A stretch of DNA of 64,000 bases from Roseateles aquatilis (GTDB taxonomy: Bacteria > Pseudomonadota > Gammaproteobacteria > Burkholderiales > Burkholderiaceae_C), in NCBI RefSeq assembly GCF_002205645.1, contig NZ_NIOF01000013.1, positions 107,083-171,082 of the forward strand, written 5' to 3'. The notes under the pieces were generated by a model. It was not told where the DNA came from, made no database searches, and saw nothing but the letters and a program-made list of their open reading frames with translations. Below, in pieces: positions 1,506 to 50,819 of this stretch (the stretch's first letter is position 1; each line of letters starts with the position of its first letter). The position numbers and the translations under genes are program-made.

Positions 1506-2570
1506 ATGCCGCCACCGAAACCCGCCACCATCATCGACGTCGCGCGCGAAGCCGGCGTGTCGATCAAGACCGTCTCGCGGGTCCTGAACCAGGAGCCCGG
1601 CGTCCACACCGAAACCCGCGAGCAGGTCCTGAAGGTCGTCGCCGACCTCAAGTACCGCCCGAAGCAATCCGCCCGCAGCCTCGCGGGGGGGCGGTCCTTC
1701 CTCATCGGCCTGCTGTACTACGACCCGTCCGCCGCCTTCGTCGGCGGCGTTCAGCAGGGCGCCACGCTGCGCTGCCGCGAGGCCGGCTACCACCTCGTCG
1801 TCGAGTCCCTGCACAACGACGCGCCCGATCTGCCGATGCAGGTCGACCGCATGGTCTCCGCGCTGCGTCCGGACGGCATGATCCTCACGCCGCCGCTGTG
1901 CGACAACCCGCAGGTGCTGAGCGCCCTGCGCGACAGCCAGACCCCCTGCGTGCTGATCTCCCCCGCCGCGGACAACCCCGACCACCCGAGCGTCCGCATG
2001 GACGACATCCATGCCGCCGAGGAGATCACCAACCTGCTGATCAGCCTGGGCCACACGCGCATCGCGATCATCAAGGGCGCGAAGGAGCAGGTCGCGTCCA
2101 AGCGCCGCTACCAGGGCTACCTGGCCGCGCTGAAATCGCACCGCATCGCGCTGGACAAGGATTTGGTCGTGCAGGGCGACTTCACCTTCGACACCGGCGT
2201 CGAGGCCGCCTATCAGTTGCTGAGCCGTCGCCAGCGCCCCACCGCCGTCTTCGCCAGCAACGACGAGATGGCGCTGGGCGTGCTGGCCGCCGCGCAGCGC
2301 CTGGGCCTGGCGGTGCCGGGCGACCTGTCCATCGCCGGCTTCGACGACACGCCCGCCGCGGCGCGCGTCTGGCCGCCGCTGACGACGGTGCGGCAACCGA
2401 TGGACGACATGGCCCGCGCGGCCGTCGACCTGCTGGTGGGGGCGCCCCGCGATGCCGGCGCCGCGACCGAGGCGGCGCCCATTCACCGTGTGCTGCCGCA
2501 CGAGCTCATCGTGCGCGACTCCACCGCGGCGCTCGGCGCCAAGAACACGGCGCGGCCCAAACGCGCCTGA
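1506..2570 (+). CDS. LacI-family transcriptional regulator of the glucoside locus
   Basis: A 354-residue repressor of the LacI/GalR family. Residues 6-30 hold the N-terminal helix-turn-helix (IIDVAREAGVSIKTVSRVLN). The rest is a periplasmic-binding-protein-like sugar-sensing domain, with typical segments such as VFASNDEMALG and IAGFDDTPAA. It lies beside the halogenase, TonB receptor, ABC transporter, GH1 glucosidase and glucokinase genes. Two palindromes of LacI-operator type (4396-4409 and 4420-4433) overlap the divergent promoters of that locus, so it most likely represses uptake and hydrolysis genes until a glucoside or its product binds. The effector is inferred. It converges with the halogenase gene, with 93 bases between the stops. 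Confidence 0.9.
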   Translation: MPPPKPATIIDVAREAGVSIKTVSRVLNQEPGVHTETREQVLKVVADLKYRPKQSARSLAGGRSFLIGLLYYDPSAAFVGGVQQGATLRCREAGYHLVVESLHNDAPDLPMQVDRMVSALRPDGMILTPPLCDNPQVLSALRDSQTPCVLISPAADNPDHPSVRMDDIHAAEEITNLLISLGHTRIAIIKGAKEQVASKRRYQGYLAALKSHRIALDKDLVVQGDFTFDTGVEAAYQLLSRRQRPTAVFASNDEMALGVLAAAQRLGLAVPGDLSIAGFDDTPAAARVWPPLTTVRQPMDDMARAAVDLLVGAPRDAGAATEAAPIHRVLPHELIVRDSTAALGAKNTARPKRA

Positions 2571-2663: not shown

Positions 2664-4232
2664 TCAAGCGGCCTGCGTCGCCGCGCTCTTCATGCCGGCG
2701 CGCGCCAGCATCTGCTCGATCAACGCGCGATGCGGCGGCAGATCCCGCAGCGCATGGGCGCCGAGTTGCGCGATGGCCTGGAACTCACGCCGTGCCTCGT
2801 CCGCGCGGGTCAGCGCCGCGGTCGCCGCGCCCAGGTCGGTTTTGAATTCCATCCCGTACAGCACGTACTGCCAGCTCGCCGGCAGGTACATCTCGACGTC
2901 CGTGATGAAGTCCAGGCGCTGCGGCGGCCGCGCGCGCCACATCGCGAGCTTGTCCGTCAGCGTGCCGGTCCAACTGGACGGATCCGCGTTGTCCCGCCAG
3001 AACGCCGAGTCCCGCCGCTGCGTCAGCGCGTAGTGCATCTTGATGAAGTCGACGATGCGCACGTAGCGCTCGCGCATGAATGCGTTGAAGTGCCGGGCCG
3101 CCGGGCCCATATCGCCGTTGAACGGGAACAGTTGGCCGATCAGGTAGGCGGCCGTCTCGATCAAGCCGATGCCGGATGATTCCAGCGGTTCGAGGAAGCC
3201 GCCCGACAGTCCCACCGCCACGCAGTTGTGTGTCCACTGCGTCTCGCGATAGCCGACGTTGAGCGTCAGCTTGCGCGGCGTGAGCGCATCGCCGGCCGGG
3301 CCGACGTAGCGGCGCAGCACGCGCTCCGCGTCGTCGTCGTCGCAGTGGCGGCTGCTGTAGACGTGACCGATGCCGCGGCGCTCCTGCAGGCCGATGTCCC
3401 AGATCCAGCCATGCTGCCGGGCGCTCGCGATCGTGCATGACGCGATCGGCGCATCCGGCCGTCCGTAGGGCACCTGCATCGCCAACGCGCGGTCGACGAA
3501 GAGCACGTCGTTCAGCGGCTTGAACGGCGAGCCCATCGCCTCGCCGATCAGGCGGGCACGGAAGCCGCTGCAATCGATGTAGAGATCGGCCGTCAGCGCG
3601 CCGGCCTCGCGCGTGTGCACCGTGGCGATCGCGCCGCGCTCGTCGAGGTCCACGCGGTCCACCGTCGCCAGCACCCGCTTCACGCCCAGCGACTGGCCGT
3701 GCTCCGCCAGCAGCGCCGCGAACCGGCCCGCGTCGAAGTGATAGGCGTAGTTCAGCGGGCCAACGAAGTCCCCGTCCACCGCGCGCTTGGGCCCGTGGCG
3801 CGCATCGACCACCGCCTTCTGCAGCGTCACCGCGTCCGCGAAGGCCCGGCCCGCGCCGGCTTCGCCGCGCAGCCAGTAGGGCAGCAGCTCCGGCGCGCCC
3901 GGTCGCTGGCTGGGCTGGCTGAACGGATGGAAGTAGTGGTCATGCCCCGGCGTACCTTCGGGCCGCACCCAATGGTCGAAGCGGATGCCCTGCTTGAAGG
4001 TCGCCGAGCACGCTTCCAGGAAGCGCGCCTCGCCGATGCCGATCGCCGACAAGGTGCCGCGGATCGAGGGAAAGGTGCCTTCGCCGACGCCGATGATGCC
4101 GATGTCGCTGGACTCGACCAGCGTGATGCGCACCCCGCCGCGGGCGGTGCCGAGCTGCTTCGCGAGGAAGGCTGCCGTGAGCCAGCCGGCCGTGCCGCCG
4201 CCGACGATGAGAACGTCCTGGATGGGGTTCAT
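2664..4232 (-). CDS. Flavin-dependent (tryptophan-type) halogenase family protein
   Basis: Member of the PrnA/RebH-type flavin-dependent halogenase family, which uses reduced FAD, O2 and halide to make hypohalous acid held on a lysine. The start at 4232 is chosen because AGGAGA lies 10 bases upstream and the FAD-binding motif GGGTAGW follows at residues 11-17; this gives 522 residues. The catalytic lysine is present (K80 in ATFKQGIRF), as is the glutamate of EPLESSGIG. The WxWxIP motif appears as WIWDIG, with Pro replaced by Gly. No flavin reductase is adjacent. It is transcribed divergently from the TonB receptor, from a promoter that carries one of the two LacI-type operators. Similar halogenase-like genes beside TonB receptors are known in Xanthomonas and Caulobacter relatives, mostly with unknown substrates. 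Free tryptophan need not be the substrate. Confidence 0.85.
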   Translation of the reverse strand: MNPIQDVLIVGGGTAGWLTAAFLAKQLGTARGGVRITLVESSDIGIIGVGEGTFPSIRGTLSAIGIGEARFLEACSATFKQGIRFDHWVRPEGTPGHDHYFHPFSQPSQRPGAPELLPYWLRGEAGAGRAFADAVTLQKAVVDARHGPKRAVDGDFVGPLNYAYHFDAGRFAALLAEHGQSLGVKRVLATVDRVDLDERGAIATVHTREAGALTADLYIDCSGFRARLIGEAMGSPFKPLNDVLFVDRALAMQVPYGRPDAPIASCTIASARQHGWIWDIGLQERRGIGHVYSSRHCDDDDAERVLRRYVGPAGDALTPRKLTLNVGYRETQWTHNCVAVGLSGGFLEPLESSGIGLIETAAYLIGQLFPFNGDMGPAARHFNAFMRERYVRIVDFIKMHYALTQRRDSAFWRDNADPSSWTGTLTDKLAMWRARPPQRLDFITDVEMYLPASWQYVLYGMEFKTDLGAATAALTRADEARREFQAIAQLGAHALRDLPPHRALIEQMLARAGMKSAATQAA

Positions 4233-4379
4233 GTCCGCTTGTCTCCTGTGATGACGAGGACGGCTTTTCCCTGCCGCCTTGCGCGCGTCGGGTGGCCCGC
4301 CCGACCTTGAGGGCAAACCCTTGATCGCCCAGGAGTCCGATGGATACGGGGATCCCGGCCGTAGCCCGACTACGGGTAA

Positions 4380-4410
4380 ATGATAGTGCGTGAAATGACA
4401 ACGATGTCAA
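4380..4410 (-). promoter_or_regulatory. Promoter of the halogenase gene
   Basis: On the minus strand a perfect TTGACA -35 box (4405-4410) is followed, after 19 bases, by TATCAT (4380-4385). The -35 lies inside operator 4396-4409, so repressor binding would block it. It is about 150 bases before the halogenase start. Confidence 0.6.
4396..4409. promoter_or_regulatory. LacI-type operator O1
   Basis: TGACAACGATGTCA is a 14-bp palindrome with one mismatched position and the central CG expected of LacI/GalR-family sites. It covers the -35 box of the leftward halogenase promoter. Its centre is 24 bp from that of O2. Confidence 0.75.
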
Positions 4411-4418
4411 TCTTCGCG

Positions 4419-4448
4419 TTGACAACGTTGTCATCGACTGACTACGAT
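4419..4448 (+). promoter_or_regulatory. Promoter of the TonB receptor/glucoside operon
   Basis: A perfect TTGACA (4419-4424), an 18-base spacer and TACGAT (4443-4448). The -35 is embedded in operator O2. Transcription would start near 4455, leaving a leader of about 125 bases before the receptor start. Confidence 0.65.
4420..4433. promoter_or_regulatory. LacI-type operator O2
   Basis: TGACAACGTTGTCA is a perfect 14-bp palindrome centred on CG. It overlaps the -35 box of the rightward promoter. With O1 it forms a paired site, about two helical turns apart, that could repress both directions at once. Confidence 0.8.
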
Positions 4449-4579
4449 GTACTCAAACTACAAGATCAACGTCGGGACACGTCGCGATCATCACCGCCAC
4501 GAGCGGAAGATTCCCGCGACGTCGACGACGGCCGAAGTCGGTACAGAGCTTTGATTCGAAGAGCCCACCAGGAGACAAC

Positions 4580-7021
4580 ATGACTGATCGCCCCTTCCGC
4601 CGGCCGCGTCCCGGCCTGGCCACGCCCGTCCAGATCGCCGTCCTCGCCTTGATGACCGGTGCCGCGTACGCCCAATCCACCCCGGCCCCGGCGCCCGCGC
4701 CGCAGGCGGAGAACTCGCCGGCCGCCACCGCCGCGGACGGCAAGGAGTCCAAGGCGCTGCCGCAGGTCGTGGTGACCGCGACCAAGCGCAGCACCTCGCT
4801 GCAGAAGACCCCGATCGCGGTGACCGCGATCAGCTCGTCCACGCTGGACGACGCGCATGTGACCAACATGCTCGACGTCTTCAACCTCGTGCCCAGCATG
4901 CAGGGCACGGGGCAGGGCGACCACGGCATCGTCAGCATCACGATGCGCGGCATCGGCAACGACTCGGCCAAGACCGAGTACGCCGATCCGGAGGTCGCGC
5001 TGTTCGTCGACGGCGTCTTCGCGCCGCGCCCCGAGGGCGCCGCGACGATGCTCTTCGATCTCGACGGCATCGAGGTCCTGCGCGGACCGCAGGGCACGCT
5101 GTGGGGCCGCAACTCCACCGTCGGCACCATCAACATGAAGACCGCCAAGCCGGTCTTGAAGGACAACTCCGGCTACGTGGAAGGCGGCGTCGGCAGCTAC
5201 AACCGCATGGGCGTCAAGGGCGCGATCAACATCCCGCTGGGCGACACGGCGGCGATGCGCGTGGCCTTCATCCACGAGCAGCACGACGGCTACGTCGACT
5301 ACCAGAAGCCCACGCAGTACACGCTGGCCCAGCAGCAGACCGCCTATGCCGCGTCCAACGGCGGCAGCCTGACCGGCTTCCAGCCGATCAACTACAACCT
5401 CTTCGTCACCGGTGGACCGAAGTACAACGCGCAGGACCAGACCGCCGCGCGCCTGAGCTTCCTGTGGAAGCCGAGCGAGCAGTTCCGCTGGGATGTCTCG
5501 GTGGAGCAGTTCGCCGACCGCGGCACGCCGTCGATGAGCCTGATGCAGACGCCGCGCTCGGGCGAGAAGCTCTGGTCGGCGTTGATCGACACCGCGCCTT
5601 CGCTCAAGCGGGACTCCACGTCCATCCGCAGTCGCATGGAGTACGACCTCGGCGGCATGGCGCTGGCCTACGTCGCGGGCTACACGCACTTCAAGGGCTC
5701 GGGCACCTACGACCAGGACTTCGGCGTCAACATGCCGACCAGCTTCACCACCGGCGCGACGCACCAGGAGGACAACACCGTCTGGACCAGCTACCGCAGC
5801 CAGAGCCATGAGCTGACGCTGCAGAGCACCGCGAAGCAGACGGTGGACTGGGTGCTGGGCCTGTACTACGCCGCCGAGGACAACGGCATCCGCTTCGACA
5901 TCCCGATCGTGAACGGCACCCAGCAGGGCACGATCAACTGGGCGGGATCGTTCATCCAGCCCAAGGAGACGGTCGACTCCAAGGCCGTCTTCGGCCAGGC
6001 GACCTGGAACGTCAACGACGCGCTGCACCTCACCGGCGGCCTGCGCTACACCCACGACGATCGCAAGAACATCGGCGGCCGCGGCTGGTTCTGGGCCGCC
6101 AATCCCAACGCGCCGCAGATCCCGCTGAACGCGACGATCGATCCGACCGATCCGGCCAACGGCTACACCGCCGGCAACATCAACGACGCGCACTACACCG
6201 GCGGCAAGACCACCTGGCTGGCCCGCGCCACCTACGACCTGAGCAAGACCGCGATGGCCTACGCCAGCGTGTCCACCGGCTACAAGTCCGGCGGCTCCGG
6301 CGACGGCGGCCTGCACTACGGGCCCGAGTCGCTGACCAACTACGAGGTCGGCTACAAGACCACGCTGTGGGACGGCCGCATGACCTTCAACGTCAGCGCG
6401 TATCACATGAAGTTCCGGGACTTCCAGTTCAGCGCGCCGGTCATCGTCAACGGCAACCGCCAATTCGCATACAGCAACGCCGAGGGCGCGAAGGTCTCCG
6501 GCGTCGAGATCGAGAGCTCCCTCCTGGTCACCAACGACGACAAGCTGATGGTGTCGGCGGCGTACACGAAGACCAAACTCGGCGCGCTGGTGGCGGCGTC
6601 CAACGACTATGCGCTGCCGGTCTGCTTCGACGCCGCGCTGGGCGGCAACTGCCTGAACGTCACCGGCAACGAGCTGCCGCACGCGCCGAAATTCGCGCTG
6701 CAGCTGATGTACGAGCACACCTTCCCGCTGTCCAACGGCGACACCATCGCGCCGCGCATCAGCTTCCACTACCAGACGGCCAACTGGCTGTCGGTCTTCA
6801 ACCTCGGCGACGGGGACCGTCAGAAGGCGTACTCGACGGCCGACATCAGCCTGCGCTACGTGTCGAAGAAGAACTGGTACGTGGACGCCTTCGTGCGCAA
6901 CGTCTCGGACGAGAAGATCAAGACCAGCGCGGGCAGCTCCGGTGCCTTCGCCAACGCGATCTGGACCGCCCAGTACGCCGCGCCGCGGACCTTCGGCGTC
7001 AACGCCGGCTACAACTTCTGA
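4580..7021 (+). CDS. TonB-dependent outer-membrane receptor
   Basis: An 813-residue TonB-dependent receptor that imports a ligand across the outer membrane using TonB/ExbBD energy. It has a signal peptide ending near residue 31 (GAAYAQ), then a Pro/Ala linker and the TonB-box/plug start (LPQVVVTATKR, plug to about residue 190). The barrel ends in the family's terminal aromatic residue (AGYNF). The start is supported by AGGAGAC 4-10 bases upstream. It is the first gene of the rightward glucoside operon, and the next gene begins after one base. The context suggests the ligand is an oligosaccharide or aryl glucoside, perhaps too large for the porin. Regulation is predicted through operator O2. 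Confidence 0.93.
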   Translation: MTDRPFRRPRPGLATPVQIAVLALMTGAAYAQSTPAPAPAPQAENSPAATAADGKESKALPQVVVTATKRSTSLQKTPIAVTAISSSTLDDAHVTNMLDVFNLVPSMQGTGQGDHGIVSITMRGIGNDSAKTEYADPEVALFVDGVFAPRPEGAATMLFDLDGIEVLRGPQGTLWGRNSTVGTINMKTAKPVLKDNSGYVEGGVGSYNRMGVKGAINIPLGDTAAMRVAFIHEQHDGYVDYQKPTQYTLAQQQTAYAASNGGSLTGFQPINYNLFVTGGPKYNAQDQTAARLSFLWKPSEQFRWDVSVEQFADRGTPSMSLMQTPRSGEKLWSALIDTAPSLKRDSTSIRSRMEYDLGGMALAYVAGYTHFKGSGTYDQDFGVNMPTSFTTGATHQEDNTVWTSYRSQSHELTLQSTAKQTVDWVLGLYYAAEDNGIRFDIPIVNGTQQGTINWAGSFIQPKETVDSKAVFGQATWNVNDALHLTGGLRYTHDDRKNIGGRGWFWAANPNAPQIPLNATIDPTDPANGYTAGNINDAHYTGGKTTWLARATYDLSKTAMAYASVSTGYKSGGSGDGGLHYGPESLTNYEVGYKTTLWDGRMTFNVSAYHMKFRDFQFSAPVIVNGNRQFAYSNAEGAKVSGVEIESSLLVTNDDKLMVSAAYTKTKLGALVAASNDYALPVCFDAALGGNCLNVTGNELPHAPKFALQLMYEHTFPLSNGDTIAPRISFHYQTANWLSVFNLGDGDRQKAYSTADISLRYVSKKNWYVDAFVRNVSDEKIKTSAGSSGAFANAIWTAQYAAPRTFGVNAGYNF

Positions 7022-7022
7022 C

Positions 7023-8339
7023 GTGAGCCGAGGCCCCGCGATCGACCGGCGATCGGCGGCCCGCGCGCTGCTGGCGGCCGGGATCGCGGCCGCCGTGCCG
7101 GGCGTGATCGCCCAGCCGGCGGGATCGATCCCAGGACCGGGAGAACGGCCGGCGACGCGCACGCCGCTGCGCGTCGCCACCTTTCCCGACCTGGACCGCG
7201 CCGCCATCGCCGCGGCGCCGCGCTGGCGCGCGCTTCATCCGGATGTCGAGCTGAAGATCCTGGCCATGCAGTACGCCGACCATCACCTGTCGATGACGAC
7301 CGCCCTGGCGACCGGTTCCGGCCTGCCGGACGTGATGGCGATCGACCTGCGGCACATCGGCAAGTTCGTCGGTTCCGGCGGCTTCGTCGATCTGAACCCG
7401 CCGCCGTATGACGTCGCGTCGCGTGCGGGCGAGTACGTCCGCTACGCGATGGCGCAGGGGCGGGACGCACGCGGCGCGCAGGTGGCGATCCCCGCCGACA
7501 TCGGGCCCGGCACGCTGATCTACCGCAAGGACGTTCTCGACAAGGCCGGCGTGAGCGAGACCGAGATCACCCGCGACTGGGACGCCTATCTGGCCGCCGG
7601 CCAACGCATCCGGAAGACGACCGGGGCGTACCTGATGACCGATGCCGCCGACCTGCGCGACATCGCGTTGCGGCAGGGGCTGCAGGATGGCGAGGGCCTG
7701 TACTTCGACGCGGACGGGCGCGTGCTGGTCGACTCGGCGCGCTTCCGCCATGCGTTCGAGCTCGGCCGCGCCGCGCGCCGGGCGGGGCTGGACGCGCGCG
7801 CGGTGGCGTGGACCAACGACTGGGCGGCGGGCTTCAAGCAGGGCCGCATCGCGACGCAGATGATGGGCGCCTGGCTGGTCGGCCAGCTGCGCAATTGGAT
7901 CGCGCCGGCGACGGCCGGCCTGTGGCGCTCGGCGCCGCTGCCCGGCGGCGTGCTGGCCGCCTACGGCGGCTCGTTCTACGCGATCCCGAAGAAGGCCGCC
8001 AACAAGGCCGCGGCCTGGGACTTCATCCGCCTGATGACGGCGGATCCGCACGTGCAGCTCGAATCGCTCAAGGTGCTGGACAGCTTCCCCGCGCTGCTGT
8101 CGGTGCATGGCGATCCGGTGATGGACGAGCCGATCGCCTTCCTCGGCGGTCAGCGCGCGCGCCAACTGTGGCGCGACACCGCGCGGCGCATCCCCGCCAT
8201 CCCGGTCAATCGCTTCGACGCCATCGCGACGCAGATCATCCGCGACGAGTTCGAGAAGGTCGTCGCGCGCGGCAAGGACATCGGGGAGGCGCTCAAGGAT
8301 GCGCGCCGCCTCATCGAGCGCCGCGCGCGCCGCCGCTGA
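7023..8339 (+). CDS. Sugar ABC transporter substrate-binding protein
   Basis: Extracellular solute-binding protein of the MalE/UgpB type, feeding a sugar to the two permeases that follow. I chose the GTG at 7023, one base after the receptor stop, which gives 438 residues and an N-terminus with twin arginines (DRRSAARALLAAG) then a hydrophobic stretch and an A-x-A-like cleavage region, possibly a Tat-type signal. An ATG in the same frame at 6942 lies inside the receptor gene and is unlikely. No lipobox is visible. The C-terminal half shows the usual GGSFYAIPKKAANK and AWDFIRLMT segments. Coupled translation from the receptor gene is likely because no strong ribosome site is seen. Confidence 0.88.
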   Translation: MSRGPAIDRRSAARALLAAGIAAAVPGVIAQPAGSIPGPGERPATRTPLRVATFPDLDRAAIAAAPRWRALHPDVELKILAMQYADHHLSMTTALATGSGLPDVMAIDLRHIGKFVGSGGFVDLNPPPYDVASRAGEYVRYAMAQGRDARGAQVAIPADIGPGTLIYRKDVLDKAGVSETEITRDWDAYLAAGQRIRKTTGAYLMTDAADLRDIALRQGLQDGEGLYFDADGRVLVDSARFRHAFELGRAARRAGLDARAVAWTNDWAAGFKQGRIATQMMGAWLVGQLRNWIAPATAGLWRSAPLPGGVLAAYGGSFYAIPKKAANKAAAWDFIRLMTADPHVQLESLKVLDSFPALLSVHGDPVMDEPIAFLGGQRARQLWRDTARRIPAIPVNRFDAIATQIIRDEFEKVVARGKDIGEALKDARRLIERRARRR

Positions 8340-8351
8340 GGGAGCCGCCCG

Positions 8352-9398
8352 ATGAGCCGCTTCCCTCGTCCCGGTCTCGCCAGCCCCGGCCCTGCTCGGC
8401 CCGAAGCCGCGAATGCCGGACCTGCTCGCTCCGGCCTGCCGCGTCCACCGTGGTGGCGGTCGCGCGCGTGGGCGCCTTATCTCTTCATCGCGCCGTTCTT
8501 CGCGCTGTTCGTGGTCTTCGGCCTGTTCCCGTTGCTGTTCTCGATCTGGCTGTCGCTGCAGCAGTGGAATCCGGCGGAGGGGCTGCACACGATGCACTGG
8601 GTCGGGCTGGAGAACTACGTCTACGCGCTCACCGATCCATGGTTTCACGACGCGCTCTACAACACCGCCTGGTTCGCGCTCGTGGCCGGCGTGCCGCAGC
8701 ACCTGGTCGCGCTGCCGCTGGCGTTCTTCATCCATCGGCGCGCCGGGCGCGGGCGCGACCTGATCGTCGGCGCCTATTTCGTGCCGTACATCACCTCCAG
8801 CGTCGCCATCGCGCTGATCTTCAACACGCTGTACTCGAAGGACTACGGCCTGATCAACGCGGCGCTGGCGGAGCTGACCCGCATCCCGTTCCTGGGCAGC
8901 CCGCTCGCGACGCTGCCGTCGCTGAAGGACGGCGGCATCGACTGGCTCGGCGACGCCGACTACACGCGGCCCGCCGTCGCGTTCGTCGTGTTCTGGCGCT
9001 ACCTCGGCTGGAACGTCGTGCTTTACCTGTCCGGCCTGCAGATCATCGACAAGGACCTCTACGAGGCCGCCACGCTGGACGGCGCCAGCGAGTGGCAGCA
9101 GTTCCGTCACGTCACGCTGCCGCTGCTCAAGCCCATCATGTTCTTCGCGGTGACGCTGACGATCATCGGCAACCTGCAGCTGTTCGAGGAGCCCTTCATC
9201 CTCGTCGACGGCGAGCAGGGTGTGGCGACGTCGGTGATGACCAGCGCGATCTTCATGTACCGGACGGCGTTCTCCGACGGCGACTTCGGCACCGCGTCGG
9301 CGATGTCCTGGCTGATGTTCCTGTTGATCGCCGCGCTGACCTGGCTCAATGCCCGGCTCTTCGGCCGCGACGCGCGAGGCGGCCATGGCGCGCCCTGA
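8352..9398 (+). CDS. Sugar ABC transporter permease (MalF/LacF type)
   Basis: Inner-membrane permease of the carbohydrate uptake-1 family, 348 residues. About six membrane segments follow a Pro/Arg-rich cytoplasmic leader. The ATPase-contacting EAA loop is seen as YEAATLDGASEWQQF with HVTLPLLKPI after it. GAGGGAG lies a few bases before the ATG. It overlaps the next permease gene by 14 bases, so the two are co-translated. No gene for the partner ATPase is present in the locus. Confidence 0.9.
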   Translation: MSRFPRPGLASPGPARPEAANAGPARSGLPRPPWWRSRAWAPYLFIAPFFALFVVFGLFPLLFSIWLSLQQWNPAEGLHTMHWVGLENYVYALTDPWFHDALYNTAWFALVAGVPQHLVALPLAFFIHRRAGRGRDLIVGAYFVPYITSSVAIALIFNTLYSKDYGLINAALAELTRIPFLGSPLATLPSLKDGGIDWLGDADYTRPAVAFVVFWRYLGWNVVLYLSGLQIIDKDLYEAATLDGASEWQQFRHVTLPLLKPIMFFAVTLTIIGNLQLFEEPFILVDGEQGVATSVMTSAIFMYRTAFSDGDFGTASAMSWLMFLLIAALTWLNARLFGRDARGGHGAP

Positions 9399-10284
9399 AC
9401 GGGTCCGGCCGTGGAGCGTCGACCGCCGCCGCGCGGTCGGTGGCGGGTGCGCCCGCCCGCGGTCCGCGCGGGGGCGGCCGTGGCTGGCCTGGGCGCTGGT
9501 CATCGCCGGCGCGGTCGTGCTGGTGTCGCCGCTGTACTTCACCTTCGTCTTCGCGACGCATGGCCGCGCCGAGATCTTCAACTCGCCGCCGCCGCTGGGG
9601 TTCGGTGACGCGGCCGTCTCCAACCTGCGCCTGCTCGAAGAGCGGCTGCCGTTCTGGCGCAACCTGGGCATGAGCCTGTACGTCGCGTCGATGACGACGG
9701 CGTTGAACCTGCTGCTGTGCTCGCTGGCCGGCTACGGCTTCGCGATCTACGAGTTCCGCTTCAAGCGCCCGCTGTTCGCCGTCGTGCTCGGCTCGATGAT
9801 GCTCCCGAGCTTCCTGCACATGATCCCGAGCTTCATGGTGATGGACGCACTCGGCTGGATCGACGAGCCGCGCGCGCTCTACGTGCCGGCGGCGGCGAGC
9901 GCGCTGGGCATCTTCCTGATGCGCCAGTACATCGGCGCGGCGATCCCGCGCGACCTGCTCGACGCCGCGCGCATCGACGGCTGCGGCGAGCTGCGCATCT
10001 TCTGGAGCATCGTGCTGCCGCTGCTCAAGCCCGCGCTGGGCACGCTGGGCCTGATCACCTTCATCGCCAGCTGGAACAACTTCGTCGGGCCGCTCGTGGT
10101 GATGCGATCGGTGGAGCACTACACGCTGCCGCTGGCGCTGCGCTCGATGCAGGCGCCCAACAACACCGAATGGGGCGCGCTCATGATGGGCAGCGCGATC
10201 GCGATGCTGCCCTTGCTGGTGGCCTATTGCTTCAGCGCCCGGCGCCTCGTCGCCGGGCTCACCTCGGGCGCCGTGCGCGGTTGA
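9385..10284 (+). CDS. Sugar ABC transporter permease (MalG type)
   Basis: Second permease of the same importer, 299 residues from the ATG at 9385, which overlaps the end of the first permease gene. An earlier in-frame ATG at 9349 lies deeper inside that gene and is less likely. The EAA loop reads LDAARIDGCGELRIFWSIVL, followed by PLLKPALGTLG. It pairs with the MalF-like subunit to form the pore. Confidence 0.9.
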   Translation: MARPERVRPWSVDRRRAVGGGCARPRSARGRPWLAWALVIAGAVVLVSPLYFTFVFATHGRAEIFNSPPPLGFGDAAVSNLRLLEERLPFWRNLGMSLYVASMTTALNLLLCSLAGYGFAIYEFRFKRPLFAVVLGSMMLPSFLHMIPSFMVMDALGWIDEPRALYVPAAASALGIFLMRQYIGAAIPRDLLDAARIDGCGELRIFWSIVLPLLKPALGTLGLITFIASWNNFVGPLVVMRSVEHYTLPLALRSMQAPNNTEWGALMMGSAIAMLPLLVAYCFSARRLVAGLTSGAVRG

Positions 10285-10312
10285 GCCGCCCCAGGACCGA
10301 CACGGACACGCC

Positions 10313-11917
10313 ATGCCCGCCGCCACCCCGATCCCCCCCAACGACCGACACGCGTCGAGCGCTCCCGGCGCCGCCGCGACCCGGCCGTCAGCGCCGTCGA
10401 CGCCGTCGACGCGCGCCCCGACTCCCCTGCCTTCCACGTCCCCCATGCCTTCCTTCGACCGGACCACCATGCACGCGACCGCCGCCCACCCCGCCACCAG
10501 TGCCGCCACCACGCCCGCCACCAGCTCCGCCGCCTCCCCCGGCGTCGATCCGTCGACCCCGTCCTCCGCGGACACGGACACCTTCCGTGCCCTGATCCGG
10601 TCGCTGCCGGCCGGCTTCCAGTGGGGCTCCGCGACCAGCGCGGCGCAGATCGAGGGCGCCGCCCGCGAGGACGGCAAGGGCGAGTCGATCTGGGACCGCT
10701 TCTGCGCCCGGCCGGGCGCGATCAAGGACGGCTCCGACATCGACGTCGCCTGTGACCACTACCGGCGCTATCCGCAGGACGTGAAGCTGATGCAGTGGTT
10801 GGGCCTGGACGCCTACCGCTTCTCCTTCGCCTGGCCGCGTGTGCAGCCGCTGGGCCGAGGCGCCTGGAACGAGGCCGGCTTCGCCTTCTACGACCGGCTC
10901 ATCGACACGCTACTGGAGGCCGGCATCCAGCCCAACGCGACGCTGTACCACTGGGACCTGCCGCAGGCGCTGGACGAGTCCATCGGCGGGCTGCTGTCGC
11001 GCGAGGTGGTGCCGCTGTTCGCCGACTACGCGGCGGAGATCGCGCGACGTTTCGGCGATCGCCTCGCCACCATCGCGACCTTGAACGAGCCCTGGTGCTC
11101 GGCCACGCTCGGCTACGAGACCGCGCAGTTCGCGCCCGGCCACCGCAACCGCGCCGAGGCGACGCAGGTGTCGCACCACCTGCTCATGATGCACGGCGCC
11201 GCGATCCAGGCGATGCGCGCGGTGGGCGGCCAGGCCAGGCTGGGCATCGTGCTCAACCACACGCCGTCCTTCCCGGCCGATCCGCTGAGCGAGGCCGACC
11301 GCCGCGCCGCCCGCATCGACGACGGCACCAATGTGCGCTGGTACATGGACCCGGTGTTCCGCGGCCAGTACCCGGCCGACATCGTCGAGTACCTGGGCGC
11401 CGACGCGCCGCTGATCGAGGTCGGCGACCTGGCGCTGATCCAGCAGCCGCTGGACTTCCTGGGCGTCAACTTCTACACCCGCAGCGTGCTCGACGGGCGC
11501 CAGGCCATGGTCAAGCCGCCCGGCGAGCTGGGCTTCACCGACATGGGCTGGGAGATCTATCCGCAGGCGCTGACGCAGCACCTGCTGCGCATCAGCCGCG
11601 AGTACACGCCGCCGCCCATCGTCATCACCGAGAACGGCATGGCCAACGCCGACCGCGTCGTCGACGGCCGCGTGGCCGATCCGGCGCGCATCGCCTACCT
11701 GCGCGGCCACCTCGAAGCGGTGGCGCAGGCGGTGGCGCTGGGCGCCGACGTGCGCGGGTACTTCTACTGGAGCCTGCTGGACAATTTCGAGTGGAACTCC
11801 GGCTACGAGAAGCGCTTCGGGCTCTTCCACGTCGACTACGCAACCCAGCAGCGCCTGGCCAAGGACAGCGCGCACTGGTACCGGGACATGATCGCGGCGT
11901 TCAAGGCGCCGCGCTGA
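10313..11917 (+). CDS. GH1 beta-glucosidase with N-terminal low-complexity extension
   Basis: Family 1 glycoside hydrolase that releases glucose from beta-glucosides, probably in the cytoplasm after ABC import. The catalytic domain begins near residue 95 (GFQWGSATSAAQIEG). The acid/base glutamate is E259 in TLNEPW and the nucleophile is E440 in VITENGM. The length is 534 residues, about 90 more than the usual ~445. The excess is a Pro/Ala/Thr/Ser-rich N-terminus without a signal peptide. Two internal ATGs (10445 and 10469) could be the true start; none of the candidates has a strong ribosome site. Its product would be phosphorylated by the glucokinase encoded downstream. Confidence 0.9.
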   Translation: MPAATPIPPNDRHASSAPGAAATRPSAPSTPSTRAPTPLPSTSPMPSFDRTTMHATAAHPATSAATTPATSSAASPGVDPSTPSSADTDTFRALIRSLPAGFQWGSATSAAQIEGAAREDGKGESIWDRFCARPGAIKDGSDIDVACDHYRRYPQDVKLMQWLGLDAYRFSFAWPRVQPLGRGAWNEAGFAFYDRLIDTLLEAGIQPNATLYHWDLPQALDESIGGLLSREVVPLFADYAAEIARRFGDRLATIATLNEPWCSATLGYETAQFAPGHRNRAEATQVSHHLLMMHGAAIQAMRAVGGQARLGIVLNHTPSFPADPLSEADRRAARIDDGTNVRWYMDPVFRGQYPADIVEYLGADAPLIEVGDLALIQQPLDFLGVNFYTRSVLDGRQAMVKPPGELGFTDMGWEIYPQALTQHLLRISREYTPPPIVITENGMANADRVVDGRVADPARIAYLRGHLEAVAQAVALGADVRGYFYWSLLDNFEWNSGYEKRFGLFHVDYATQQRLAKDSAHWYRDMIAAFKAPR

Positions 11918-12100
11918 GCGACGGATGCCGAGGCCGGGCAATGGGCACCGGGCCGCGGCCAGGGTCGAGGAGGGGGCGGACTGTGGCAGCATCCAGGGCT
12001 TTCGCGCGGCCGGCGAGGGCGGGTCCGTCCCGCGGGGGGCTCCGGCCGGGGCCACGACCGCGCGCTCGACGCGGAGCAAGCATGAAGGAGCAAGCAAGGC

Positions 12101-13114
12101 ATGAGGCAGGGCTCGGAGACCGGCGCGCACGACGCGGCGCCGACGCGATTGCTGGCGGACGTGGGCGGCACGCATGTGCGCTTCGCCAGCCAGGGTGGTG
12201 CGGCGGGGCCGCTCGAGCATGTGGCGCGTTATGCCTGCCGCGACTTCGACAGCCTGGCCGACGCGATCTTCTATCACCTGCATCGCGAGGGCCTGCCGAC
12301 GCCGCGCAGCTGCGCGATCGGCATCGCCACGGCGATCACCGGCGACCACGTCCGGATGACCAACCACCACTGGAGTTTTTCGACCCGCGCGCTGCAGTCC
12401 GCGCTGGGCGCCGAGCGCCTGCTGGTGATCAACGACTTCACCGCGCTGGCGCTCGCGCTGCCGGCGCTCGGGCCGCGATCGACGCGCAAGATCGGCGGCG
12501 GCGAGGCCGTCGCCGGCGGCCCGATGGGGCTGGTCGGCCCGGGCACCGGCCTGGGCGTGTCGGGCCTGCTGCCGTCGGAGGACGACGGCGTGTTGGTGGC
12601 CGTGGCCGGCGAGGGCGGTCACGCCACGCTGGCGTCGTACGACCCCGAGGAGCGCGCGGTGCTGGACCTGCTGCATCGCCGCTTCGGCCATGTCTCGGCG
12701 GAGCGCGCCGTGTCCGGCCCGGGGCTGGAGAACCTCTACACCGCGCTGGCCGAATTGCGCGGCCTCAAGATGGCGCCCGGCGAATGCCGCGACGCGCCCG
12801 CGATCACCGCCGCCGCGCTGGCCGGCGAGCCCTTCAGCAGCGAGGTCCTGCGCATGTTCTGCGCCCTGCTGGGCGACGTCGCCGGCAACGTCGCGCTGAC
12901 GCTGGGCGCGCGCGGCGGCCTGTACATCGGCGGCGGCATCGTGCCGCGGCTGGGCGAGTGGTTCGACGCCAGCCCGTTCCGTGCCCGCTTCGAGTCCGCC
13001 GGCCGGCTCACGGCCTACCTGCGCGCGATCCCCACCTTCGTCGTGCACGAGGCGGACCAGGCCGCGCTGCTCGGCGCCAGCCGCGCGCTGGACCGCGGCG
13101 CGTCGCCGCACTGA
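12101..13114 (+). CDS. glk: Glucokinase
   Basis: ATP-dependent glucokinase of the bacterial Glk family, 337 residues, converting the glucose freed by the GH1 enzyme to glucose 6-phosphate. Visible motifs are the phosphate-binding LADVGGTHVRFA (residues 18-29), the sugar-binding INDFTALALALP with its catalytic Asp, GPGTGLGV and YIGGGIVPR. It lies 183 bases after the glucosidase gene on the same strand, so it may be at the end of the operon or have its own start. It closes the glucoside pathway: receptor, ABC importer, hydrolase, kinase. Confidence 0.93.
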   Translation: MRQGSETGAHDAAPTRLLADVGGTHVRFASQGGAAGPLEHVARYACRDFDSLADAIFYHLHREGLPTPRSCAIGIATAITGDHVRMTNHHWSFSTRALQSALGAERLLVINDFTALALALPALGPRSTRKIGGGEAVAGGPMGLVGPGTGLGVSGLLPSEDDGVLVAVAGEGGHATLASYDPEERAVLDLLHRRFGHVSAERAVSGPGLENLYTALAELRGLKMAPGECRDAPAITAAALAGEPFSSEVLRMFCALLGDVAGNVALTLGARGGLYIGGGIVPRLGEWFDASPFRARFESAGRLTAYLRAIPTFVVHEADQAALLGASRALDRGASPH

Positions 13115-45079: not shown

Positions 45080-46093
45080 ATGGCAACCGAGAACATCACC
45101 CACGAAGCAAAGAGCGCCGCGGATTACGACGCCACCGCCAAGCAAAAGGCCCAGGCCAAGACCGCGCGCATCCCGATCAAGATCATCCCGGCCGAGCAGC
45201 TCAAGAAGCCGGACTGGATTCGCGTCAAGGCGGGCTCGCCCAGCACGCGCTTCTACGAGATCAAGCAGATCCTGCGCGAGCACAAGCTGCACACCGTCTG
45301 CGAGGAAGCCTCCTGCCCCAACATCGGCGAGTGCTTCGGCAAGGGCACGGCCACCTTCATGATCATGGGCGACAAGTGCACGCGCCGTTGCCCGTTCTGC
45401 GACGTCGGCCACGGCCGCCCGGATCCGCTCGACGTCGACGAGCCGATGAACCTGGCCAAGACGATCGCGGCTCTGAAGCTCAACTACGTCGTCATCACCA
45501 GCGTCGATCGCGATGACCTGCGCGACGGCGGCGCCGGCCACTTCGCCGAGTGCATCCGCAAGGTCCGCGAGCTGAGCCCGCTGACGCAGATCGAAGTGCT
45601 GGTGCCCGACTTCCGCGGCCGCATGGACCGCGCGCTGGACATCCTGAAGGCCGCGCCGCCGGACGTGATGAACCACAACCTGGAAACCGCGCCGCGCCTG
45701 TACAAGGAAGCGCGTCCGGGCTCGGACTACCAGTTCAGCCTCAACCTGCTCAAGCGCTTCAAGGAAGCCGTCCCCGGCGTGCCGACCAAGAGCGGCATCA
45801 TGGTCGGCCTGGGCGAGACCGACGAGGAGATCCTTCAGGTCATGCGCGACATGCGCGCCCACGACATCGACATGCTGACCATCGGCCAGTACCTGGCGCC
45901 GTCGGGTCACCACCTGCCGGTGCGGCGTTACGTGCACCCGGACACCTTCAAGATGTTCGAGGAAGAGGCCTACAAGATGGGCTTCACGCACGCGGCCGTG
46001 GGCGCGATGGTGCGCTCCAGCTACCACGCCGACCAGCAGGCCCATGCGGCGCTGGAGAAGGCGGATGCGGAGCGGGCGGCCTCGGCGGCTTGA
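45080..46093 (+). CDS. lipA: Lipoyl synthase LipA
   Basis: 337-residue radical-SAM enzyme that inserts two sulfurs into octanoyl groups. The auxiliary cluster cysteines are in [12 protein letters not shown] (about residues 73-84) and the radical-SAM CxxxCxxC in [18 protein letters not shown] ([11 protein letters not shown]) and the C-terminal RSSYHADQ serine ligand region are present. Preceded by lipB and closed by a terminator. Confidence 0.98.
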
Positions 46094-46115
46094 ACGCGCC
46101 CTTCGCCCAATGAAG

Positions 46116-46145
46116 ATCGGCTCCCTCGGGAGCCGATTTGTTTTG
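46116..46145 (+). terminator. Terminator after lipA
   Basis: Ten-bp stem ATCGGCTCCC/GGGAGCCGAT followed by TTGTTTT, between the convergent lipA and efflux outer-membrane genes. Confidence 0.88.
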
Positions 46146-46156
46146 GCGCTCCGCGC

Positions 46157-47653
46157 TCAGGCCGGCGCCCACCGCCCGGCGATGTTCTTCAGCAGCAGGT
46201 TCACCGCCGCCAACTGACGGTTCTTCAGCGACAACAACGAGGCCTCGGCCGTGAACGCGCTGTTCTGCGCCGTCGTCACTTCGAGGAAGCTGACGGTGCC
46301 GGCGCGGTATTGGTCGGTCACGAGCTCCAGGTTGCGCTGCGCGGCCTCCAGCGCTTCCTGTTGCAGGCGCGACTGGGTCCGCAGGTTGTCGGTCAGGATC
46401 AGGTTGTCCTCCACCTCCTGCAGCGCGGTCAACACCGTCTGGCGGTAGGTGGACGTGGCGACCTCGGCGCTGCTGCGGGCCTGCGCGCTGGCCAGCTTGC
46501 GCTGGCCGCCGTCGAAGATCGCCTGCGCCAGCGACGGACCGAGCGACCAGAACAGATTGGGCGCCGTCAGCAGGTGGGACAGCGTGCTGCTGCGGTAGCC
46601 GCCGCTGGCCGACAGCGTCAGCGACGGGAAGTACGCCGCGTCGGCGACGCCGATCTGCGCATAGGCCGAGGCCACGCGGCGCTGCGCCGCGGCGATGTCC
46701 GGACGGCGTTCGAGCAATTGCGAGGGCAACAGCACCGGCACCTCGGGCGCCGTCGGTAGCGCGGCGCTGCGTGCCAGGTCCAGCGCCGACGGCGGCAGGC
46801 CCAGCAGCACGGCGACGGCGTGCTCCAGCTGGCCGCGCGTGCTGCGCGTCTCCAGGAGCTGGGCCTCGGCGGAACGCAGTTGCGTCTGCGCCTGCAGCAC
46901 GTCGCTGCGGGCCGCCACGCCGCCTTGGTAGCGGGCCTGCGTCAGGTCGAGGAAGCGCTGATAGGCCTTGACGCTGCGGTCGTAGAGCGCCTCCTGCGCC
47001 TCGGCCGTGCGCAGCGAGAAGTAGGTCTGCGCCAGCGTCGCCTGGGCGCTCAGCCGCGCGGCCGCCAGGTCGTCGGCGCTGGCCTGCAGCGTGGCGCCCG
47101 CGCCTTCGCTGGCCAGGCGCAGACGGCCCCAGAGGTCCGCCTCCCAACTCGCGTTCAGCGATGCCTGCACGCTGTTGGACGGCCCGCGGTTGATCGTGCC
47201 GTTGCTGACGTTGCCGTCGGGGCTGGCGCTGCGCGTGCCGGAGAAACCGGCCGACAGCGTCGGGAACAGCGCGGAGCGGCTGGCCTCCAGCGCGGCGCGC
47301 GCGCTGGCGACCTGGGCGACCGCCGCCTTCAGGTTTTCGTTGCCGATCACCAGCCGGCGCTGCAAGTCGTCCAGGGCCGGGTCGTTGAACAGCGTCCACC
47401 ACTGCTCGGGCACCGCCTCGGCGGTGCCGGGCTGGGCCTTCTTCCAAAGGCCGTCTTCCTTGAACTGCGCCGGCGCGGCGACCGGCGGCGGCGGGTCGAC
47501 GCGCGTCACCGCGCAGCCGCCGAGCAGCGCCGCCGCGGCGGCCAGCGTCGTCATCGCGGCGCTGGCGCCCAGGCGTGCCCGGCGGGTGCCACGCGACGCG
47601 AGACGCGCGACGGGGCCGAGGGAGGAGAGGGGGGGAATGAACGGGGTCGGCAT
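46157..47653 (-). CDS. Efflux outer-membrane lipoprotein, NodT/OprM family
   Basis: 498-residue outer-membrane channel of the RND efflux system encoded upstream. The lipobox LLGGC lies near residue 47, after a long N-terminal stretch; the true signal peptide may begin at the internal Met at residue 34. Two OEP domains with the usual coiled-coil helices follow ([41 protein letters not shown] in part, then [20 protein letters not shown]). It is the last gene of a four-gene operon. The expected stop of the mdtC-like gene lies three bases before this ATG. Confidence 0.92.
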
Positions 47654-47656
47654 GTC

Positions 47657-50600
47657 TCAGCCCTGCAGGGTCGGAGCCGCGGGCGGCTCGGGATTCATCG
47701 GGGGCACGGCGCCGTGCGCGCGCGGCCTTGGCGGCGCGGCGGCGCTGGAGGCGGCGGCGCAGGCGCTCCATCGTCACGAAGACGACCGGGGTCGTGTACA
47801 GCGTCAGCAGCTGGCTCAGGATCAGCCCGCCGACGATGGCGATGCCCAGCGGCTTGCGCAGCTCGGCGCCGTCGCCGCTGCCCAGGGCCAGCGGCACCGC
47901 GCCGAAGATGGCCGCGAAGGTCGTCATCAGGATCGGGCGCAGCCGCAGGTTGGCGGCGCGGAAGATCGCCGCGCCCGCCGACAGATGCGCGGTGCTGCGC
48001 TGCCGCGCGATGGCGAAGTCGATCATCATGATCGCGTTCTTCTTCACGATGCCGATCAGCAGGATCACGCCGATCAACGCGATGATCGAGAACTCGGTGT
48101 TGAACATCATCAGCGCCAGCAGCGCGCCCACGCCCGCCGACGGCAGCGTCGACAGGATCGTCACCGGGTGGACCAGGCTCTCGTACAGCATGCCCAGCAC
48201 CAGGTAGATCGCGATGATGGCCGCGCCGATCAGCAGCGGCTGCGACTTCAGCGAATCCTGGAACGCGTTGGCGGTGCCGGCGAAGGTGCCGCGCACCGAC
48301 ACCGGCACGCCCAGCTCCGACATCGCGTTGTTGATCGCGTCCGTGGCCTGCGACAGCGACACGCCTTCCGGCAGATTGAAGCTGATCGTCGAGGCCGGCG
48401 TGCCGCTCTGGTGGTTGACCGACAGCGGCGTGTTGGTCGTCTCGAAGCGGCTGAACGCCGACAGCGGCACCTGCGCGCCGGAATTGCTGATCACGTAGAG
48501 CTTGCGCAGCGTCTCCGGTCCCTGCAGGTAGGGCGCCGCCAGTTCCATCACCACGCGGTACTGGTTCAGCGGGTTGTAGATCACGCCCACCTGGCGCTGG
48601 CCGAAGGCGTTGTTCAGCGTCGTGTCGATGGTGCTGACGGTGATGCCCAGCCGTGCCGCGGCCTCGCGGTCGATGACCAGCGAGGTCTGCATGCCCTTGT
48701 CCTGCTGGTCGGTGTTGACGTCGGTCAGCTCCTGCAGCTGCGACAGCGCGTTGCGCACGCGCGGCTCCCAGGCCCGCAGCGCCTCCAGGTCGTCGGCCTG
48801 CAGCGTGAACTGGTACTGCGCGTTGGCCTGCCGGCCGCCGATCCGGATGTCCTGCACCGGCACCATGAACAGGTTGGCGCCGGGCTCGTGGGCCATCTTG
48901 TCGCGCAGCCGGTTCACCACCTGGTCGGCCGAGACCTTGCGCTCCTTCAGCGGCTTGAGCGTGATGTAGAAGTTGGCGCTGTTGCGCTGCCCGCCGCCGG
49001 TGCTGCCGTTGACGTTCTCCACCGCCGGGTCCGACAGGATGATCTCCATGAAGCGGTCGACCCGCTTGCGCATCATGTCGAAGGAGCTGCCCTGGTCCGC
49101 CTGCACGCCGCCGATCAGCACACCGGTGTCCTGCTGCGGGAAGAAGGTCTTGGGGATGGCGCCGTACAGGTGCACGTTCAGCGCGATCACCGCCACCAGC
49201 GACAGCAGCGCCACCGGCTGATGGCGCAGCGTCCACATCAGCGTGCGCCGGTAGCCGCGCACCACGCCGCGATTGAAGCCGTCGAACAGACGCACGAGGC
49301 GGCTCTTCCGGGCCGTCGGCGCGCCGGGCGCCGGCTCCTGGCGCGCGCGCAGCACCCGCGAAGCCATCATCGGTGTCGTCGTCAGCGATACCACCATCGA
49401 GACCAGGATCGCCGACGACAGCACGACCGCGAACTCGCGGAACAGCCGTCCCACGACGCCGCCCATCAGCAGGATGGGGATGAACACCGCGATCAGCGAC
49501 AGGCTGATCGAGACCACCGTGAAGCCGATCTCGCGCGCGCCGCGCAGCGCGGCCTCCTTGGGCGCCAGGCCCTGCTCGATGTAGCGGGTGATGTTCTCCA
49601 GCACCACGATGGCGTCGTCCACGACGAAGCCGGTGGCCACCGTCAGCGCCATCGCCGACAGGTTGTCCAGGCTGTAGCCGCACAAATACATCACGCCGAA
49701 GGTGCCGGCCAGCGACACCGGCACGGCCACCGCCGGCAGCAGCGTCGCGCGCCAGCTGCGCAGGAACAGCAGCACCACCAGGATCACCAGGCCGATGGCG
49801 ATCGCCATCGCGCGCTGCACCTCGTCCAGCGAGGCCTTGATCGTCGGCGTGCGGTCGCTGATGACCTTGAGCTCGATGGCCGGCGGGATCGAGGCCTGCA
49901 GGCGCGGCAGCAGCTCGCGCACCCGCGCGACCGTCTCGATGATGTTGGCGCCGGGCTCCTTCTGGATGAAGAGCAGGATCGCCGGCTGGCCGTTGGACGC
50001 GCCGTAGTTGCGCACGTCCTGCACCGAGTCGACGACGTCGGCCACGTCGCGCAGCCGCAGCGCCGCGCCGTCGCGGTAGGACAGCAGCACCGGCGCGTAC
50101 TCGGCCGCGGTGCGGGCCTGGTCGTTGGCGCCGACCTGCCAGTAGCGGCCGCCTTCCTCGACCGAGCCCTTGGGCCGGTTGGCGTTGGTGTTGGTGATGG
50201 CCTGCCGCACTGTGTCCAGCGCGATGCCGTTGGCGGCCAGCTTGTCGGGATTGAGCTCCACCCGCACCGCCGGCAGCGCGCCGCCGCCGACGTTGACCTG
50301 GCCCACGCCGTCGACCTGCGCCAGGCGCTGCGCCAGCACCGTCGACGCGGTGTCGTACATCTGGCCGCGCGTCAGCGTCTGCGAGGTCAGCGCCAGGATC
50401 ATGATCGGCGCGTCGGCCGGGTTGACCTTGCGGTAGGTCGGGTTGCTGGGCATGCCGGTCGGCAGTAGCGTGCGCGCGGCGTTGATCGCCGCCTGCACGT
50501 CGCGCGCGGCGCCGTCGATGTCACGGTTCAGGTCGAACTGCAGCGTCACGTTGACCGAGCCCAGCGACGAGCGCGAGGTGATCTCCGTCACGCCCGCGAT

Positions 50601-50819
50601 GGCGCCGAGCGCGCGCTCCAGCGGCGTCGCCACCGTCGCGGCCATCGTGTCCGGGCTGGCGCCGGGCAGCGAGGCGGACACCGAGATCGTCGGAAAGTCC
50701 ACCTGCGGCAACGGCGCGATCGGCAGGAAGTGGTACCCCAGCACGCCCGCCAGCGCGATGCCCAGCGTGATCAGCGTGGTCGCGACCGGCCTGGCGATGA
50801 ACGGCGCCGAAATATTCAT
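47657..50819 (-). CDS. mdtC: RND efflux inner-membrane transporter, MdtC-like, with apparent 3' frameshift
   Basis: Multidrug-efflux RND pump subunit. It starts [20 protein letters not shown], has twelve membrane segments, the TM4 acidic pair in [18 protein letters not shown] and normal pore domains. Homology ends at [10 protein letters not shown]. In the observed frame no stop follows and the frame stays open to 45984 (1611 codons), crossing the whole outer-membrane gene out of phase. Skipping one base in the GC-repeat at 47715-47726 restores an ending of about 20 residues ([13 protein letters not shown]) and a TGA at 47657, three bases before the next ATG, giving about 1053 residues. So a one-base insertion or two-base loss, real or from sequencing, is likely. 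Start overlaps mdtB by four bases. Confidence 0.85.

Follow-up and report, generated by a model that had tools for sequence, protein, structure and literature searches.

What might a flavin-dependent halogenase do among genes for sugar uptake? The question is raised by a locus of Roseateles aquatilis that lies in a stretch of 64,000 nucleotides (contig NZ_NIOF01000013.1, positions 107,083 to 171,082), the whole of which is called the window here. A gene for a predicted halogenase of 522 amino acids (2664-4232, minus strand) stands divergent from an operon for a TonB-dependent receptor, components of an ATP-binding cassette (ABC) sugar importer, a glycoside hydrolase family 1 (GH1) beta-glucosidase and a glucokinase, beside a gene for a LacI-family regulator. 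Genes, strands and order agree with an earlier reading of this DNA (the original prediction), in which the halogenase had been placed in a glucoside-uptake regulon. Features were located from open reading frames (ORFs) and Pfam scans, and halogenase residues are numbered from the ATG at 4232. The evidence supports the view that the halogenase is a member of what looks like a dedicated beta-glucoside regulon, and among related loci the constant partner of the halogenase is the receptor.

Operator-like sites and the regulon

Two operator-like sites, missed in the original prediction, lie inside the 347-bp gap separating the halogenase and receptor genes. Site TGACAACGATGTCA (4396-4409) is one base away from a palindrome, and TGACAACGTTGTCA (4420-4433) is a perfect palindrome. 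Both are predicted LacI-family operators, and we infer that they are bound by the LacI-family protein encoded at 1506-2570 (plus strand; Pfam LacI and Peripla_BP_3), the predicted repressor of the regulon. When up to two mismatches were allowed, the site pattern gave four matches over both strands of the window, corresponding to these two sites, against a mean of 0.43 in shuffled sequence. Across all 6.39 Mb of the genome, exact matches are confined to this locus; sites with one mismatch were found at two other places.

The pattern was also searched in 16 genomes of the genus. Fifteen carry the halogenase, each with an exact KGACAACGWTGTCA lying 38-229 bp upstream of its halogenase match; the sixteenth has neither the halogenase nor the site. 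A reversed control pattern gave no match in any of the 16. Across the 15 halogenase-bearing genomes there are 11 additional sites, of which part could be accounted for and part could not. In six congeners (L261, L263, L264, L280, L281, and L282) the exact site adjoins a methyl-accepting chemotaxis gene, and an MFS transporter lies on the opposite side of that site in four of the six (Pfam confirmed for L263 and L280). The regulon is likely to include chemotaxis in some species. Among wider relatives the site sequence shifts by lineage and its symmetry is kept. The form in Rhodoferax metagenome-assembled genomes (MAGs) and one beta-proteobacterial MAG is TGACAGCGTTGTCA, that in Undibacterium and its kin is TGAAATCGTTTTCA and similar, and that in Rhodanobacteraceae is TGACAGCGCTGTCA.

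Halogenase and receptor are parted in Rhodanobacter glycinis, where the receptor, LacI and GH3 genes lie on one contig (C8, locus L158) and the halogenase on another (C11, locus L058). This 3.9-Mb genome holds only three exact TGACAGCGCTGTCA sites: between the receptor and LacI genes, before the GH3 gene, and 75 bp upstream of the halogenase. Since the unlinked halogenase bears the same site, its place in the regulon seems to be maintained independently of the receptor, which argues against an accident of a divergent promoter. The halogenase is likely a real member of the regulon. The original placement in a glucoside-uptake regulon is borne out by the conserved operator-like sites, by the unlinked site of R. 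glycinis, and by a tie between halogenase and glycoside genes that recurs in Burkholderiales, Rhodanobacteraceae and a Caulobacter.

One of the one-mismatch sites of the R. aquatilis genome (C44:96303-96316) lies about 55 bp ahead of a gene for a PF00999 cation/proton antiporter that starts near 96372 (L132). Relatives of this antiporter (70-73%) sit within halogenase/receptor loci in six distinct records (L049, L050, L059, L064, which is the same as L133, L068, and L087), and in genome G1292 the same site stands before the antiporter gene. The tie may point to ion or proton exchange alongside uptake. Distant PF00999 antiporters, 25-28% identical to that of R. aquatilis, were also seen in each of the Sphingomonas loci L070, L071, L075, L076, and L078 (Pfam confirmed for L075).

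Partners of the halogenase in related genomes

A clade of 37 close loci was defined by a halogenase identity of at least 58.5%; 36 are distinct, as L133 repeats L064 and the duplicate was removed by hand. A window-type receptor is present in 35 of these 36, GH1 or GH3 lies near the halogenase in 33 (GH1 in 15, GH3 in 18), and a LacI-family gene similar to that of the window occurs in 29. Glucokinase (7/36) and the ABC binding protein (6/36) were found less often. The strict site pattern is present somewhere in 34 of the distinct loci, and in 33 a TGANANCGNTNTCA-type site is found no more than 400 bp upstream of the halogenase or the receptor. The exceptions are L045, L052, and L059; the first two show near variants of the site in this gap. 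Of the 37 loci, 23 have the halogenase and the receptor on opposite strands and 13 have them co-directional. The opposite-strand loci were split by script into 16 divergent and 7 "convergent" cases, the latter thought to be divergent with overlapping stop-to-stop frames. As both strand arrangements occur, the adjacency of receptor and halogenase has outlived rearrangement. The receptor is thus the constant partner in this clade; GH1, GH3 and the importer interchange.

The wider family was surveyed in 397 sampled genomes of the phylum, of which 73 have a PF04820 match at E 1e-40. One locus per genome was taken from 40 of the 73, drawn from the high-scoring part of the list (class A), and compared with 40 control stretches taken elsewhere from these contigs, at a distance of roughly half the contig if it was long enough. 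A TonB receptor was detected within about 8 kb in 36 of the 40 class-A loci vs. 5 of the 40 controls, and any of eight glycoside-hydrolase profiles in 30 vs. 4, with gene profiles built partly from the 40 class-A loci themselves. Twelve loci have hydrolases of the GH13/GH97/pullulanase group, 16 of GH1/GH3/GH16, and 3 of GH43, with one locus entered twice. Loci L092, L094, L095, and L110 gave no receptor match and were scored as misses; the representative protein of a cluster shared by the first three is an outer-membrane barrel. Among 51 relatives from named genomes, a receptor was found in 45 and any hydrolase in 39. A second set of 17 loci (L133-L149), mostly lower-scoring members, has any hydrolase in 10, and GH20, NagA and a BadF-type kinase together in 5.

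A FastTree phylogeny of 140 halogenases with a midpoint root was built after 16 of 155 halogenase frames had been dropped before alignment (no GxGxxG-like start, or fewer than 400 amino acids after it). The 38 rows of the window's clade group together with a starred value of 99. At least 12 changes are required to place four sugar labels on this tree against a shuffled mean of 29.5, with the 41 of 140 rows that have no single sugar label uncounted, so the labels are clustered yet switch. The tie of homologs to glycoside genes, on which the original prediction would stand or fall, turned out to run to TonB receptors of many glycans: the family follows these receptors and their glycans in general, not aryl glucosides. 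A tie of the halogenase solely to beta-glucosides was accordingly rejected for the family, which includes starch, xylan and chitin loci, and retained for the 36-locus clade.

The R. aquatilis genome encodes a second halogenase of another tree class (C48:257555-258937, L130). It lies in a run with genes for Cupin_8 (PF13621), SapC (PF07277) and another TonB receptor, with GH16 nearby, and this set of Cupin_8, SapC, receptor and halogenase recurs in many loci. Two halogenases of different tree classes stand together with SapC, Cupin_8 and a receptor in L134, L136, L137, L105, and L117. No paper joining a tryptophan halogenase with SapC was found in the open literature.

Proteins encoded at the locus

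The window protein matches PF04820 with 426 bits against a cut-off of 21, over model positions 1-446 of 458, and at least 7,992 PF04820 proteins were present among 7,999 scored candidates for this query. Its closest named relatives are from Mitsuaria and Roseateles species (82-87% identical). The ORF spans 2664-4316 if begun at a TTG; the ATG at 4232 is the likely start. The GxGxxG motif reads GGGTAG (residues 11-16), and this motif, the lysine and the glutamate are invariant or nearly so in A1. The catalytic residues named in the original prediction, K80 and the glutamate of EPLESSG (E348), hold up, both being kept in all 140 aligned halogenase rows. The Fx.Px.Sx.G motif, a postulated halogenase motif (PMC7336383), is present as FLEPLESSG (346-354).

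In place of WxWxIP the protein has WIWDIG (276-281). This sequence had been read correctly as altered, but it is no defect of this gene: WxWxIG is found in 44 of 44 rows with at least 50% identity, the window counted in, and WIWDIG itself in the solved relative 2pyx. WxWxIG is, on these alignments, a signature of the clade. The altered motif as a sign of a dead enzyme was considered and rejected, given the clade-wide motif, the invariant lysine and glutamate, and ratios of nonsynonymous to synonymous substitution (dN/dS) of 0.165 and 0.302, which indicate purifying selection, with synonymous changes partly saturated. We count the protein within PF04820 and call it a predicted halogenase, not a proven one.

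The closest solved structures by sequence are 9lu2, 2pyx and 9ltb, and all ten best-scoring solved chains are named halogenases. An AlphaFold2 model (predicted local distance difference test score, 93.8) is likewise nearest to solved halogenases, with 2pyx as the top Foldseek match. This "tryptophan halogenase" of Shewanella frigidimarina is about 40% identical over the full length and is cited as unpublished structural-genomics work (PMC7336383). In the model the FAD-binding strand starts at residue 6, which leaves no space for a signal peptide, so the halogenase is predicted to be cytoplasmic. Xcc4156 (6y1w) and BrvH (6frl) are 34-36% identical to the window halogenase. The tryptophan halogenases of antibiotic pathways, PrnA, RebH, PyrH and Thal, have the fold and the catalytic lysine and glutamate in common with it; it differs from them in sequence (31-33% identical), in the WxWxIP position, and in an operon that contains no natural-product gene. 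MibH (5uao), a lanthipeptide tryptophan halogenase, is 30% identical, but no lanthipeptide gene was present among the scanned operon genes, short precursor genes not having been sought.

The operon on the plus strand begins with the TonB-dependent receptor of 813 amino acids (4580-7021; Plug and barrel domains). It scores under the cut-off for every NCBIfam receptor model listed, and TIGR01782 gives no match. It is followed by a sugar ABC solute-binding protein (6942-8339; SBP_bac_1, in a scan begun at 7026; the start is uncertain), with an N-terminus that appears twin-arginine-like by eye, and by two permeases (8352-9398 and 9349-10284; both BPD_transp_1). The ABC sugar importer of the original prediction is thus present as a binding protein and two permeases; no ATPase gene is found in the operon. 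A MalK-type ABC ATPase gene was observed to adjoin GH1 in relatives L042, L043, L045, and L087 (Pfam confirmed for L045). As this gene is present in relatives but not in the window operon, the importer probably borrows an ATPase encoded elsewhere. The GH1 beta-glucosidase (10313-11917; Glyco_hydro_1) is above the cut-off of the NCBIfam BGL equivalog model, and its listed solved relatives are mostly named beta-glucosidase; the domain begins at about residue 97 of the ORF, and the true start is probably downstream of the ORF start. The glucokinase (12101-13114; PF02685) is above the cut-off of TIGR00749.

A carbohydrate enzyme, an inner-membrane transporter and a sugar regulator thus adjoin a TonB receptor gene, which is the gene make-up of a receptor-based carbohydrate utilization (CUT) locus. 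Xanthomonas CUT loci (PMC1790865) and two regulons of Shewanella, Bgl and Nag (PMC2996990), likewise combine a receptor with an inner-membrane transporter, a glycan enzyme and a regulator of LacI type. The Shewanella Bgl regulon includes a receptor and a glucokinase, and Nag includes a chemotaxis receptor (PMC2996990). The word halogenase is absent from the main texts of both papers. No paper tying these halogenases to sugar-receptor regulons was found in the open literature, including PMC11337851; subscription papers, such as a 2019 paper on a Xanthomonas halogenase, may have it. A gene named tryptophan halogenase is one entry in an insertion table on colony morphology of a freshwater Sphingomonas (PMC11340318).

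Elsewhere in the window, an AcrB-type efflux frame (45984-50819, minus strand) extends over 1611 codons with no stop near the usual end. It reads through the adjoining outer-membrane efflux gene (46157-47653) in another frame, which could be an assembly error.

Possible targets of the halogenase

We tentatively favor, at less than even confidence, an FADH2-dependent halogenase that is co-induced with the uptake system and would modify an indole (tryptophan) moiety in some protein or peptide belonging to the uptake apparatus, not a plant aglycone. A beta-glucoside inducer would release LacI; the receptor, binding protein and permeases, with the ATPase encoded elsewhere, would import the sugar, and GH1 and glucokinase would pass it to glycolysis. 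The halogenase, produced concurrently in the cytoplasm, would obtain reduced flavin (FADH2) from a reductase encoded elsewhere and oxidize a halide, with bromide likelier than chloride by analogy with BrvH and Xcc4156. Hypohalous acid (HOX) would then reach the target by way of K80, in an active site that would be open. Halogenase clades are paired with receptors across predicted systems for beta-glucan, chitin, starch and xylan alike, which makes something from the receptor pathway a more probable target than an aglycone. A protein- or peptide-borne indole or tryptophan group would agree with the open-site relatives: Xcc4156 and BrvH convert indole and not free tryptophan (PMC7336383; PMC5945002), and larger substrates or peptides have been proposed for them by their authors (PMC7336383; PMC5945002). 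For BrvH and the Xanthomonas enzymes, native substrates are described as unknown (PMC7336383). A more specific form, to which we attach a low probability, is a receptor-maturation module, in which cytoplasmic halogenases of Proteobacteria would halogenate tryptophans of glycan-specific TonB receptors before export, or of a peptide that serves them.

Several observations weigh against the uptake-apparatus reading. The identity of the target is its weakest step, drawn from the constancy of the receptor across sugars and from published open-site relatives. The proline of WxWxIP is missing, and an open active site is suggested by relatives and by one alignment gap: the window halogenase is without 4 + 13 residues present in AbeH (8fov) ahead of YAYHFDA, in one alignment and for loop 1 only, which suggests a short loop 1. 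The receptor was detected in only 9 of the 17 loci of the second set; the misses are L140, L141, L143, L144, and L146-L149, of which L146 begins and L148 ends at a contig end. The stretch available shows no receptor for six of the 51 named-genome relatives. One is R. glycinis, with its unlinked receptor, and the other five are the Sphingomonas loci named above (50-54% identity).

The same holds for receptor loci that lack the halogenase. A receptor match at E 1e-60 was found in 4 of 399 genomes of the order: R. aquatilis itself, G239 with a halogenase, and G269 and G022 (about 40% identical) without one. At E 1e-90 the window's own genome was the only match among 369 of the class. In the family of G269, probably Oxalobacteraceae, which includes Undibacterium, 34 of 195 genomes carry the window-type receptor. 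Four of these gave no locus, although in one of them (G1266) a 69% halogenase adjoins the receptor. The halogenase adjoins the receptor in 24 of the 30 readable loci and is absent from 6, where a LacI-family gene takes its place and GH1 and a LacI-type site are still there. Three of the six halogenase-less genomes have no homolog at E 1e-60, and the other three have only homologs that are at most 48% identical. The halogenase is common beside the receptor but dispensable.

Residue W736 of the receptor was considered as the halogenation target. In an alignment of 68 receptors, 49 of 60 rows linked to a halogenase have it, as against 0 of 7 rows without one, and it is the sole tryptophan column that looked different between the groups, chosen post hoc among many columns; W175, W332, W424, and W454 are conserved. 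W736 was rejected as evidence, as the halogenase-bearing sisters L213, L215, and L222 have Glu there. It also fails a test on independent pairs that corrects for descent, in which concordant pairs averaged 0.8 of 3 (p 1).

The best-surviving alternative, which we consider unlikely, is that the enzyme makes a halogenated small molecule, such as a halo-indole or halo-tryptophan derivative, for signaling or as a weapon at times of abundant plant sugar and that the sugar regulon sets only its timing. Relatives brominate free indole (PMC5945002; PMC7336383), such a product would be timed by being regulated together with food uptake, and a dispensable gene is in keeping with it. On the other hand, no natural-product gene was found among the recurrent neighbor clusters that were annotated, with many clusters outside that set; the constant neighbor is a TonB receptor, and the halogenase clades group by sugar type.

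The aglycone reading of the original prediction, in which the aromatic part of imported aryl glucosides is halogenated for detoxification or salvage, now appears improbable. The proximity of GH1 or GH3 in most loci of the clade and the acceptance of electron-rich aromatics by halogenases of this fold speak for it. But homologs also stand beside predicted starch (GH13/GH97), xylan (GH43) and chitin (GH20, NagA) loci, and 11 of 20 rows of a sister clade are beside chitin genes; since these sugars carry no aromatic aglycone, the idea is weakened. In addition, GH3 replaces GH1 in half of the clade, and a receptor with ABC importer, GH1 and glucokinase would fit gluco-oligosaccharides without an aglycone.

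We give about as little credence to a former halogenase in which WxWxIG would be the mark of a flavin monooxygenase or oxidase with a substrate linked to uptake. The universal WxWxIG of close rows is compatible with this, as are weak matches to monooxygenase and reductase models in the NCBIfam scan, which lie far below the cut-offs; the invariant lysine and glutamate, and best-scoring solved chains that are all named halogenases, among them 2pyx with the same motif, argue against it. Finally, divergent genes may use one regulatory region without a common function, but a bystander halogenase having only the intergenic region in common with the receptor is largely refuted, and very improbable, in view of the unlinked R. 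glycinis gene that still has the site and the adjacency kept in both strand arrangements.

Many PF04820 proteins are named tryptophan halogenases, and our results caution against reading such genes as antibiotic or aglycone chemistry. The operator-bearing place of this clade in a beta-glucoside uptake regulon makes the question of the native substrate directly testable, and a family that tracks TonB receptors over many glycans, together with natural loci with and without the halogenase, offers matched comparisons. The receptor-maturation module, if true, would account for the failure to find native substrates for BrvH and Xcc4156-like halogenases.

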